Assembly (NCBI GenBank): GCA_035771165.1
Contig: JAWNZC010000091.1
Location: 828,501-892,500, forward strand
Direction: 5' to 3'
Length of the DNA stretch: 64,000 nucleotides
Origin: Paragorgia papillata
Taxonomy: Eukaryota; Cnidaria; Anthozoa; Scleralcyonacea; Coralliidae
A program made the translations under genes and the position numbers. The notes beneath the pieces are model-generated. The model did no database searches, had not been told where the DNA came from, and saw only the letters and a program-made list of their open reading frames with translations. Position 1 is the first letter of the stretch. The number at the start of each line of letters is the position of its first letter. Shown here piece after piece: positions 38,247 through 52,213 of the stretch.

Positions 38247-38363
38247 TACAACCTTTTCGATTTGCTATATTTTAAACACTGCCTACGCAGCACTCTACTA
38301 TTATTTCAGCGTGCCGTTGTCGAGTTATAGCAAGTTCTCATTGCCAAATTGATACTCTGTAAG

Positions 38364-38403
38364 CAGGCGGTGTGCGGCCTCCGATCGCAAAGCGTAATGG
38401 TCA
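38364..38403 (+). repeat. left terminal inverted repeat of the 13.8-kb transposon
   Basis: Strong identity through GATCGCAAAGC, then decay. The nuclease start codon follows within 95 bp. Confidence 0.9.
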
Positions 38404-38494
38404 AAAATTAGATTTGATCATTATGCGGCTGAGCGCAGTCAGGCGAGGACTGTACCCAGTTGAGGAAAACACAACGGATTGCTTGTTATCTTGT

Positions 38495-39775
38495 AATGGG
38501 GATCACTTGTCTTTTACCTTTTCTGAAAAAGTACTCCAAAGCGGTTAACATAAACTGCTTTTCGGTAAAAGTAGCTGCTATCGATGCTCCATGTTGGATA
38601 CACAAAGCTTTGGCGATTTCTTTGTTGCAAACAGGCTCCCGAGAAAGGTGAGACAAGCATTTGTCATGCAAATTGAGTTCATATATTATTTAGCGCAATA
38701 TTTAAATTTGTCTATCGAATTGTTTTCCTTTAGGTTCTTTCGAATATTCAATAGTTACCTCCAGCTTCTCAAGGATTCGGCAGTGATACCTTTCATTGTG
38801 TTTGACGGACAATCTTTGCCAGCCAAAGAACAAGAAAACATTCGAAGGGATAGGTAAATATTATTTGCAATATAAACAATGCATTTTAATACAAACGTAT
38901 AAACTCTATTTCGTGACAACCATTTCTATATATTTGCAACAGGGAGAGACAAGAGCGATTAGTGGAGGCTCAGGACAAACAATTAGACGAGAGACAAAGA
39001 AACAAGTTACTCAGTCAGAGTGTTGGGATAAGATACGAAGATGTTGTCGAGTGCGTAAAGGTAGTTAGGTAATTCGCAGGCTTCAGAAATTTATTGTCTC
39101 GACTAAATATATGCCTCGATAACGTGCTCAATATTTCGTTTTAGCTATGCGTGTGTCAGGGTATAAAATACTTGGTGTCTCCGTACGAGTCTGATGCCCA
39201 AATCGCATTCCTTTTAAAAAATGGATATGCTGATGTTGCGATCACTGAAGATTCTGATCTGCTAGTTTATGGCTGTGAAAAGGTAAGTTACCTTAAAAAT
39301 AGTTCCCAAAATATGGCGGGAACTTAAATCATATATGATTTAAATTTTGTCTTTTTTCAATATCATTTGTGTTAAGGTTATTGTGAAACTTCAACTAAAT
39401 GGTGATGGGGAATGCTTCACTTTATCAGAAATACTTACTGGCCTAGGTGTATCAAGAAAACAGTTTCTCGAAGGTTGTGTTGCTGCTGGCTGCGATTATT
39501 TAAAGAACGTCTGCGGGGTTGGCATCCATACAGCATTTAAATTGGTAAAGTCTGGTCGTCTTTTTGACAACTTGAAAATGAAAGGGGCTTCTCTTAGCTA
39601 TACAACCTGTTTTAAAATGGCAGTAAAGGTCTTCATGCACCAAACCATCTTCGACCCCTCGAAGCTACAAGTTGGTCCACTACAAAAATGGACTGATGTT
39701 CCAGATAACGAAATTCAAACTTATTGTGGACCGTATCCTTTATTTACCACTTTAATAAAACAAAACACAATATAA
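38495..39775 (+). CDS. EXO1/FEN1 (XPG-family) structure-specific nuclease of the transposon
   Basis: Five exons: 38495-38647, 38734-38853, 38943-39060, 39145-39282, and 39377 to about 39730 (open to 39775). The protein starts MGITCLLPFLKKYSKAVNIN like eukaryotic EXO1. Metal-binding residues all appear: Asp in VAAIDAPCWIHKA, Asp in FIVFDGQSLPAKE, Glu and Asp in VSPYESDAQIAFL, two Asp in ITEDSDLLVYGCEK, and Asp in CVAAGCDYLK within a helix-two-turn-helix-like GVGIHTAFKLVKS. EXO1 proteins remove nucleotides from 5' ends and flaps. The long C-terminal regulatory tail of host EXO1 is absent or lies in later exons (a candidate continues at 39865). Enclosed by the TIRs, so it is read as an element gene that might process ends during transposition; host origin by capture is likely. 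Confidence 0.8.
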
Positions 39776-40347
39776 TAATATATAAGCATACTAATGATTA
39801 TTGATAATCAATTAATTGCTAATTAATTATTTTATCTTATATAAATATTTACATTCTTTACAGGCCTATATTTAAAGAGAACAATAATTATATGAAAAAT
39901 CTGACAGCCCCAACTTGGACTCAAACATATGCAAGGTTTTTGAATCACTGCATGGGTGCTATTAACCATTGCGCTATTTATTGCAATTTTCATGGATTTT
40001 TTTTTTATTGCTGGTTGAAGCAATCAGATCAGATTGTTCATACAATTATTCAATGTTGTTGTATTATACATATATAGTGCTATTTACAATTTTTACATCT
40101 GAGCCATGCATGGTTTAAACAAAATATTAAATTAAATACAACAGTGTACTTGTGCCTTAATTTAATATTCAGTATTGTTGACAAAGATTATGCACTTGAA
40201 CTTGCAACAGGGAACATAAACATTAAAAATGGTGAAAAACAAAATAATTTTCCCCAATTCCAAAGGGTAAGTCAATAGGACAATTTTTGGAAAGCAATAG
40301 GACAATTTTTTATACAATAAACAGAATATAATATGAACAGAAAATAT

Positions 40348-40473
40348 AATATGGATGCTTGAAAAATGAAATTTATTTCTCATGTTGAACAATATATCTC
40401 ACTCATTCGCTTTGTTCGCTTGTGAGATGTCCTGGTCAACACTAAAAATAAATTTAATATTTCCACACATCCA
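40348..40473. mobile_element. ~125-bp MITE, second copy of the 28-kb family
   Basis: ATGGATGCTTGAAAAATGAA and TTTCCACACATCCAT are inverted ends; the middle has a GCGAACAAAGCGAA-like hairpin also present in the 28195-28315 copy. Confidence 0.6.
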
Positions 40474-49530: not shown

Positions 49531-50337
49531 CCTGAATATTCACAGACCGAGTGAAACTTGATTGGGAAATATGCCTTTGGATTTGACGAACTCCTATACT
49601 GGCAACATTTACTTTGCTCTGAAATAAAAATAAACAGGATTACGTTTTATTCAAAACAACATAACGATTAACTTCACTTCTCATTACTTGCTCAGCCTAT
49701 TACCTCACCTGTTAATCACTCTTTTAATTAGATACACTACACATGTCACAAATTTATGTACAGTATACTATATACTGATCAGAATCATAAATCAGAGAGA
49801 AGGTCAGGACATATGCATGTTGCTTTTTATGCACTGTAAACACACATATCTTTAACAATAACAAAAGCTGCAGAATAGGTACATGTAATGCCAGGTTTGA
49901 AAGTTATACCAGTGGCAAAACTAAATTACTTATTTATACATTACAGTATATTATACTGTACCTTCAAAGGATTATATGTACCAGAATTGTTATGATTGTG
50001 CTTTTTCAAATTAGAAACAATACCATGATGGGATTCTATATCTTGCACAGGTACCTGGCTGGTGAGTATTTCTTGTTGGTTCTGATACTGTACGTGGGTC
50101 CATAACTGAGAAACATGCTGCATCAGTAAAGGATGGTCTTCTTTTGCAGAGCTCTCAGTATTGCAATTATCCAACAAGGTTTCACCAATGTCAATACCAT
50201 CAAGCTCATTGAAAATTTCATTATTTGGGCAGGGGCTATCTTGTTGCAAGATTGGTGATGATCCATGCTCTGGAGTTAAGATAAAAGACTATTAATAATA
50301 ATAATAATAATAGTAATAATAATATTAATATATAGGA

Positions 50338-50470
50338 TTTTACACAGTTGTGCAGAGATATGAATTTTATCTTTGAGTGGCGAAAACAATATTTTATGTC
50401 AAAATGTATGTAGCGGATGAGTGAAATATCGTGTTTACCAAGAGAAGATAAAATTCATATTTTCAAGCCC
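50338..50470. mobile_element. ~130-bp MITE, second copy of the 24.8-kb family
   Basis: GATATGAATTTTATCTTTGAG and AGAAGATAAAATTCATATTT are inverted ends. It lies in the intron after transposase exon 2's donor and overlaps none of the exons. A short TAA microsatellite lies just outside. Confidence 0.65.
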
Positions 50471-52162
50471 ATTAAAAAGTTGCATACACATACATGTACC
50501 TGTTTGGCTTGAAAACATTTCATTTTCTAATTCACCACTAAGGTCTAGGCCACTAAGTTCTAGTGCACTTTGCAAAATATTATTTGATGTCACGGGATCT
50601 GCTGTTTCATCTGCTGTTTCACTTTCTGTCACCAATACATCACAACCATCTTCTTCGTACTGCCAACATGGTCCTCGATGCAAACTGATCCATTTCCAAC
50701 CACTGCACATAATGGTCCTCAATACCCGACATTTGAGTTTGATCTGCTGCAAAAAAACACAAGTTGTAATCTATCAGTCCAAATGGCATCCGGTCCAAAG
50801 GCATTCTGGTCTGCGATGTATTTTCTCGTTTTTCAAGACACTTTGCCAGGCTATACAATAGGTTTTTCTTCTTTTCTGAAAACAATGTATTCATTGCACT
50901 CAAACTAGCCTGAAGAAAGTCTGGTTGTACAAAGTTAAAGAAGGCCATTCCACCAAGTTCAATAATCAACAGTTTCAATAGATAATTGATCATTTGTTTC
51001 TTTAATCTGGTGGACATGGTGGACTTATATGCCATAACAAAATCTCGAACACTGTCACCAATACTTGGATCTGACAGAGTTGAATGCTGTACAGGTGAGG
51101 CATTAAAAATTGGAGACAATCCATCATGTAAGCGTGTACCATGGTCCCGGAGTGGAGTCTTAGGTTCTTGCAAACCAAAGTCAATTGGGTTATGGATGTA
51201 ATCCACATTCAGGCCTTCTTCAGCGTCTTGCAAAGTTGGGTACTCCTTTGCCAAGTGTTTTAAAACACGGCTTCTACAAGATGAACCTTAAAAACAAAGA
51301 AATTGCAACAAATTATTAGGAAACTATGCACATATTATGAGCAGTTTTGCTCATAATGCAGTCATAACTTTTTCAGTTTGTCATACATGTATATAAAATA
51401 GTTTTAAACTTAAATAATACCTTTTCGATTGGAACCACAAGCGTTATTTATTGCTTCTGCACATCGGTTCCAGAAACCTTCGTCTTTAGTTGAAGGCCAC
51501 TTGTTGTTCCAGGCATCTTTCCAATACAGGCATATATATTGCACCAAATGTTGGGTTTCTTTCGTAGACCAAGGGATTTTTTGATTTGCCTTTACAACTT
51601 CTCTAGTGTCCTCTTTTGTCTTAAACAGACTTTTTCTTGACTTGAGTTCATCTGAGTGTTCAATCGCATTGAAAGGAACTTTGCATTTGGGCTTTCCAGG
51701 TGTGTCCCCAGATGAAGCAGAGCCCAAAGACCGCTTGGTCGGGTTGGAAGCCATTTGTCGCCCTGTGAAAAATACACATATTCAAGTTCAAAAAAATACA
51801 CTTTCCGAAGGGGTGCTTTGGGGTGCTTTTATATTTTTAAGTAGTTAACAATTCATAAAACATGTCTTAATAGTCAAAAATGCCTCTTCGTACACAGTTT
51901 TGTTGAAAGAAGTCAAAAACCTCACCCTCATCAAATTACGTTTCGAATTGAACTAAACCGACATTTTATTTGACGGTCTGAAATTCTGACCAAAGTGAAA
52001 TGTTCGCTTAAGATTTACTATATATACAAAGAAACATGATCTAATGGTCATATTACATCAAAATTGTCCACAAACGATAAGTAATTGTTTAATAAATCAA
52101 AACATAAACTTACCGATTTCAACTTGTTATTCCACCATGTTTACGACAAACGCCAAAATTGA

Positions 52163-52202
52163 CTACCATAGTGCTTTGCGATCGGAGGCCGCCCACCGCC
52201 TG
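52163..52202 (-). repeat. right terminal inverted repeat of the 13.8-kb transposon
   Basis: Mirror of the left end; the first transposase exon begins about 450 bp inward. Confidence 0.9.
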
Positions 52203-52213
52203 CTCTGTAAGGA

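Follow-up and report, generated by a model that had tools for sequence, protein, structure and literature searches.

A Paragorgia papillata transposon family combining a predicted P-element-fold transposase with HIRAN and EXO1-like nuclease genes

We are fairly confident that a 13.8-kb interval of the Paragorgia papillata genome is a DNA transposon of a multi-copy family. Besides a predicted cut-and-paste transposase of the P-element fold, it encodes a HIRAN protein and an EXO1-like nuclease of its own, and these two would likely bind and trim the DNA ends that arise in transposition. The element lies in a stretch of 64,000 nucleotides of contig JAWNZC010000091.1, hereafter the window. The evidence supports reading 38355..52211 as the transposon and the nuclease, HIRAN and transposase genes as parts of it (Table 1).

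Table 1 Features of the transposon, in window positions (TIR, terminal inverted repeat)
Feature	Position	Strand	Basis
Left target-site duplication CTCTGTAAG	38355..38363	none	direct reading
Left TIR CAGGCGGTGTGCGGCCTCCGATCGCAAAGC	38364..38393	+	end comparison; matched at 3 other genome sites
EXO1-like XPG nuclease gene	38496..39736	+	Pfam domains, solved relative, catalytic acids
Nuclease coding stretches	~38496-38645, 38684-38854, 38941-39069, 39160-39285, 39368-39736	+	edges approximate
HIRAN-domain protein, ~240 aa, standalone	44122..44864	+	Pfam HIRAN; one-base frame shift near 44724-44727
Transposase gene, predicted P-element fold	45691..51754	-	exon alignment with relatives; fold from relatives' models
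Transposase coding stretches	~51419-51754, 50697-51287, 50537-50701, 49529-49624, 48353-48796, 48169-48399, 47607-47759, 46418-47137, 45691-46197	-	
Exon with predicted first catalytic Asp (WIKADACDV)	48353..48796	-	relatives' alignment
Exon with predicted second catalytic Asp (GFSTD)	47607..47759	-	relatives' alignment
Exon with predicted catalytic Glu (STDDVESFF)	45691..46197	-	relatives' alignment
Right TIR	52173..52202	-	end comparison
Right target-site duplication CTCTGTAAG	52203..52211	none	direct reading

The two TIRs are identical at 29 of 30 positions (38364-38393 and 52173-52202) and at 36 of 40 in a longer comparison (38362-38401 and 52165-52204). The best inverted 30-mer match among 200,000 random pairs drawn from the window was 21/30. 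On the plus strand, which was scanned, the 9-bp direct repeat CTCTGTAAG occurs in the window at 38355 and 52203 only. An earlier note on this DNA had described near-identical 30-bp terminal repeats and an exact 9-bp flanking duplication around an EXO1-like nuclease, a HIRAN protein and a candidate minus-strand transposase. Each of these features is borne out by the data given here, and the claim that the three genes belong to the transposon gains support from further elements in which the trio recurs with 9-bp duplications.

The nuclease gene starts 132 bp inside the left end, on the plus strand. Its hand-joined exons match the Pfam domains XPG_N (9.5e-11) and XPG_I (7.1e-21). The closest solved structure is human EXO1, with which the nuclease core aligns over residues 1-316 (7.2e-38); the value for FEN1 is about 1e-18. 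As in the EXO1/XPG nucleases, both domains occur with all seven catalytic acids. In contrast to human EXO1, the nuclease is element-borne and multi-copy. The seven acids are likewise present in the nucleases of the elements on C82, C95 and C150, at about 36-69% identity per stretch to the window nuclease. One acid is replaced in the C455 nuclease. The C354 nuclease has one acid replaced and one outside the covered stretch, and a fragment at C14:11502264 spans one catalytic acid position.

The HIRAN domain of the window scores 30.7 bits (2.8e-7), above the Pfam gathering cut-off of 24.7, as do those of P0010 (27.7) and P0012 (40.2). In HLTF, the HIRAN domain binds single-stranded 3'-OH ends (PMC11237066) and is described as favouring fork-like junctions over plain single strands, with a DNA pocket region that includes N90/N91 and Y72/Y93 (PMC4666394). 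The window copy keeps the pocket-loop residues matching N91 and Y93, but has Asp at the N90 position. Unlike HLTF, it is a standalone protein of about 240 aa without helicase or RING, and it has an additional N-terminal part with a conserved C-x-S-x-C.

As for the transposase, the minus strand has an intron-containing gene that could be aligned, one exon at a time, with seven proteins 600-1181 aa long, from Dendronephthya, Paramuricea (two), Actinostola, a Branchiostoma hybrid and two others. A second search gave further relatives in B. floridae, B. lanceolatum and the acorn worm Glandiceps. A minus-strand open reading frame (ORF) at 47324-47488 was dropped as an exon, as the relatives give it no support. 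The enzyme is predicted to be a DDE transposase whose RNase H core is accompanied by a helical insertion similar to the GTP-binding domain of the P element. In a structure search with the relatives' models (mean pLDDT 51.8 and 56.3), the match was the P-element transposase, in a library without a known Academ entry. Sequence support for the fold is weak: PF21787 matched the window composite with an E-value of 0.0074 and reached 0.13 at best among ten relatives. No significant match was found between the transposase and PDB sequences. When viral contigs were scanned with a transposase profile, 16 stretches fitted the pattern and none was a relative. A Mutator-like element, considered for its 9-bp duplications, was set aside, as the transposase has no Pfam match to it.

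The window copy itself probably does not make intact HIRAN and transposase, because the HIRAN frame is shifted by one base and the reading frame of the transposase is interrupted near 50700, at a point at which the relatives are about seven residues longer. The C455 copy aligns across this broken stretch.

The genome (618 Mb, 473 contigs) was searched for further copies. The left 100 bp of the element has four matches including the window, so that the search for further copies proposed in the earlier note yielded ends at three places besides the window. At C455:462089-470477 lies a copy that retains both ends, a nuclease with 88-92% identity to that of the window over the first two stretches, and the N-terminal exons of the transposase; it also contains extra inserts. 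At C14:11502264, the left end is followed by a diverged first nuclease exon, and C354:5500188 is a right end. Ends that do not enclose the three genes had been named in the earlier note as evidence against a transposon with this cargo. Elements with the whole trio do exist, but the C455 copy is without HIRAN and the transposase catalytic core, and its flanks agree at only 6/9 positions. Its losses are such as an internally deleted derivative would show.

The trio, which the earlier note had proposed to seek elsewhere, recurs in further elements with 9-bp duplications. The element at C82:1570110-1582725 (12.6 kb) has the nuclease, HIRAN and transposase in the order and orientation of the window, and it is flanked by GTTAATGAC as an exact duplication. 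At a distance of 2.6 kb, an inverted arm contains this flanking sequence without the insertion and with a single copy of the 9 bp, which makes it a natural empty site. The trio is also present at C95:1572384-1582611 (10.2 kb) and C150:3334110-3344220 (10.1 kb). These two are 99.5-99.8% identical over the roughly 2.7 kb on the left and 1.1 kb on the right that were compared, apart from about 110 bp in C95 that are absent from C150. Their similarity ends exactly at the TIR on both sides, and their duplications are GATCTTGCC and TATATATAT, the latter inside a TA run. A left end with all three genes was read at C354:8195764, the right end not being found in the part fetched. The left ends of the window, C82, C95, C150 and C354 elements share their first bases, CAGGCGGTGTGCG. 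Seven elements were read at both ends. In six of them, including the one in the TA run, the 9-bp duplication is exact; the seventh is the decayed C455 copy. The family thus has near-identical copies at different sites. A reading as host genes is rejected, since the sequence shared between copies at different sites ends at their TIRs. The single-copy host HIRAN homologue that the earlier note had weighed against its reading was also looked for, and HIRAN proved to be multi-copy, with 46 loci.

A protein search with the relative P0002 gave at least 82 matches, or at least 45 transposase loci, a lower bound because 72 of 282 candidates were scored. A HIRAN match lies within 10 kb of 12 of the 45 loci found, window included. 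In all 12 pairs, HIRAN is on the 3' side of the transposase and on the opposite strand, at a distance of 256-2285 bp. The other 33 loci had no HIRAN with the query used, and many of them are fragments or divergent lineages. Both divergent-lineage loci that were inspected have a HIRAN-like ORF below the reach of the HIRAN search. Conversely, no transposase match lies within 10 kb of 34 of the 46 HIRAN loci. The one examined among them, C268, is an element of the C82 type (98% identical) in which an internal deletion took out the transposase core.

Sister lineages were read as well. The element at C14:565031-573368 (8.3 kb) and that on C273 were compared over 2.7 kb at one end and 2.4 kb at the other, where they are 98.3% identical. 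Their TIRs are at least 45 bp long and start with AAAGGAGGATGTTGCG, and their duplications, GGTACCAGG and GGTTATCAT, are exact. The C14 element has a transposase and a HIRAN-like ORF tail-to-tail, and no nuclease match was found within it. This ORF has no Pfam match and matches the HIRAN profile with an E-value of 4.3e-7 (probability 92.7). In a third lineage, C100, a HIRAN-like ORF is in the same place beside the transposase. It scores 15.6 bits, under the 24.7 cut-off (Pfam 0.015), and 2.2e-5 against the HIRAN profile (probability 76); no nuclease match was found in the 6 kb beyond the transposase. A midpoint-rooted tree of 22 rows, built on the part of the transposase between its first and second Asp, groups C14, C100 and C206 (support 100/99) and places the window, C82 and C95 with the lancelet and acorn-worm proteins (support 100/99). 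Thus, among the lineages whose surroundings were read, every one has a HIRAN or HIRAN-like ORF adjoining the transposase, and the nuclease was seen in the lineage of the window only. Of the three genes, HIRAN and the transposase are likely to have formed the older unit. Since HIRAN is retained where the nuclease was not found, the gene content suggests that HIRAN may be the more basic partner of the two.

The P superfamily comprises the Drosophila P element, Galileo and THAP9/Pdre2, and its transposases carry an N-terminal THAP DNA-binding domain. In the models, the present transposase resembles them in that a helical insertion domain splits its RNase H DDE core. It differs by an extra helical insert that the models place between the first two strands. 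No THAP match was found with Pfam in the window composite or in ten relatives, six of which extend, as judged by eye, into the N-terminal region; one relative has a weak Myb-like match (0.0028). The [C/D](2)H motif (C or D, two residues, H) that follows the second Asp in the P superfamily (PMC8230255) is absent within 140 residues in eight of the nine proteins with a second Asp. The lone match, 93 residues after it in P0002, is not common to the others. Duplications in the P superfamily are given as 7 or 8 bp (PMC7776569; PMC4168063), against 9 bp here. The elements are 8-14 kb long, compared to 2.9 kb for the P element, and they encode HIRAN, plus the nuclease in the lineage of the window. 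In the C14 lineage, the TIRs start with AAAGG.

An XPG-type nuclease is a feature of Academ, a group of eukaryotic transposons, and the earlier note had taken the nuclease found here as a lead towards it. That the element is an AcademX or AcademH transposon and its nuclease the Academ nuclease appears improbable to us. Duplications are reported to be 3-4 bp in AcademX and 9-10 bp in AcademH, with a suggested tie to nuclease and helicase, respectively (PMC10045372). The element shares the nuclease with AcademX and the duplication length with AcademH, and its combination of nuclease and 9-bp duplications departs from this description, in which the two are separate. Because 9-bp duplications occur both with and without a nuclease match, the nuclease-bearing elements misfit AcademX, and it is suggested that the accessory enzyme need not determine the length of the duplication. 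No helicase was found among the nine window ORFs scanned, and the structure match, in the library without a known Academ entry, points to the P-element transposase instead.

The preferred reading, a P-fold transposon with its own accessory proteins, has to be weighed against two views of what these proteins do. Transposons are known to capture genes, and the nuclease and HIRAN could be host genes taken up as passengers without a role in transposition. The C14 element, which moved without a detectable nuclease, and the C455 copy, which kept the nuclease and lost HIRAN, would fit. The trio keeps its order at five loci (window, C82, C354, C95 and C150) of families whose transposases differ widely, however, and HIRAN is convergent with the adjoining transposase at all 12 paired loci, as well as in two additional diverged lineages. 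As the catalytic acids are also kept in the C82, C95 and C150 nucleases at about 36-69% identity per stretch to that of the window, we regard mere carriage as improbable. EXO1 resects breaks for homologous repair. HIRAN and the nuclease may likewise act at the donor site instead of at the element ends, for instance by steering break repair to homologous copying, through which a copy of the element would be restored. For P-element donor breaks, repair is described as proceeding through recombination as well as through end joining (PMC7776569), which agrees with this possibility. The present data do not tell this view apart from one in which the ends of the element itself are processed, and we consider it less likely than not.

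For the transposon with accessory proteins acting on its own ends, a mechanism can be proposed. The P-element transposase cuts the 5' strands 17 bp inside the ends and leaves 17-nt 3' extensions (PMC7776569). By analogy, the present transposase would make widely staggered cuts with single-stranded 3' tails. The HIRAN protein would bind these 3' ends and protect or present them for strand joining, and the EXO1-like nuclease would remove 5' strands or flaps at excised ends or gapped insertion junctions. If the transposase cuts in the P manner, HIRAN would be the natural binder of the 3' tails and the nuclease the remover of 5' strands or flaps while ends mature or gaps are repaired. We infer DNA-end processing by the accessory proteins; the element would thereby supply its own.

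In the literature titles among the matches listed, no eukaryotic transposon with HIRAN was found, the Repbase and Dfam catalogues being outside this comparison, and no literature was found with HIRAN, transposon, transposase and XPG together. The transposase itself has relatives in octocorals, a sea anemone, lancelets and an acorn worm. On balance, we lean slightly towards a distinct animal group at the level of a superfamily, with a P-fold, THAP-less transposase, 9-bp duplications, a HIRAN protein that would hold the 3' ends and one branch with a recruited EXO1 nuclease; its members would bring their own DNA-end processing. P-element transposition is GTP-dependent and involves long 3' tails; disassembly of the insertion complex and target repair are described in the same source as not having been investigated (PMC7776569). 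With an apparent 3'-end-binding protein and a 5' nuclease encoded beside a predicted P-fold transposase, this end and repair step may become testable with purified parts.

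On contig C82 of the same genome there is a 221-bp inverted repeat, the arms of which match at 97.7%. The transposon that carries the same gene trio is inserted into one of these arms, and the second represents the insertion site without interruption. An internally deleted derivative was also identified on a further contig, C268, in which the HIRAN frame is still open and the transposase core is absent.

Repeats and other elements at C82, at C268 and in the window
Feature	Position	Strand	Remarks
Inverted-repeat arm L044	C82:1567290-1567510		221-bp repeat, 97.7%
Inverted-repeat arm L045	C82:1582726-1582946		221-bp repeat, 97.7%
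C82-type element, internally deleted	C268:72756-75432		
Inverted repeat within transposon	window 42808-43105		35 bp (94%), 228-bp core
Short repeat, transposon vs remainder of window	50322-50469 vs 24783-24934		~74% identity
Short repeat, transposon vs remainder of window	40326-40496 vs 28334-28174		~74% identity
Type I hammerhead ribozyme match	window 6421-6468	+	36.6 bits, cut-off 34
Long ORFs, judged by eye	window 6960-8399, 9770-10920, 13496-15133	-	
ORF pair	window 26664-27194	-	
ORF pair	window 61276-61971	+	

Within the window transposon, the inverted repeat flanking a core is possibly a nested MITE-like insert, and the short repeats common to the transposon and the remainder of the window are probably small interspersed elements. 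Outside it, the three long ORFs resemble, by eye, portions of retroelements that encode reverse transcriptase and endonuclease; the hammerhead match lies close to ORFs of retroelement-like appearance. The paired ORFs on opposite strands both contain GID, WKLPFE and NGSS-C stretches. By eye, they look mutually related and may constitute a further repeated element family within the window.

The terminal inverted repeats of the window family and those of its sister lineage, the C14 family, contain a common motif, either as CGCAAAGC or reversed as GCTTTGCG; the two families are otherwise different.
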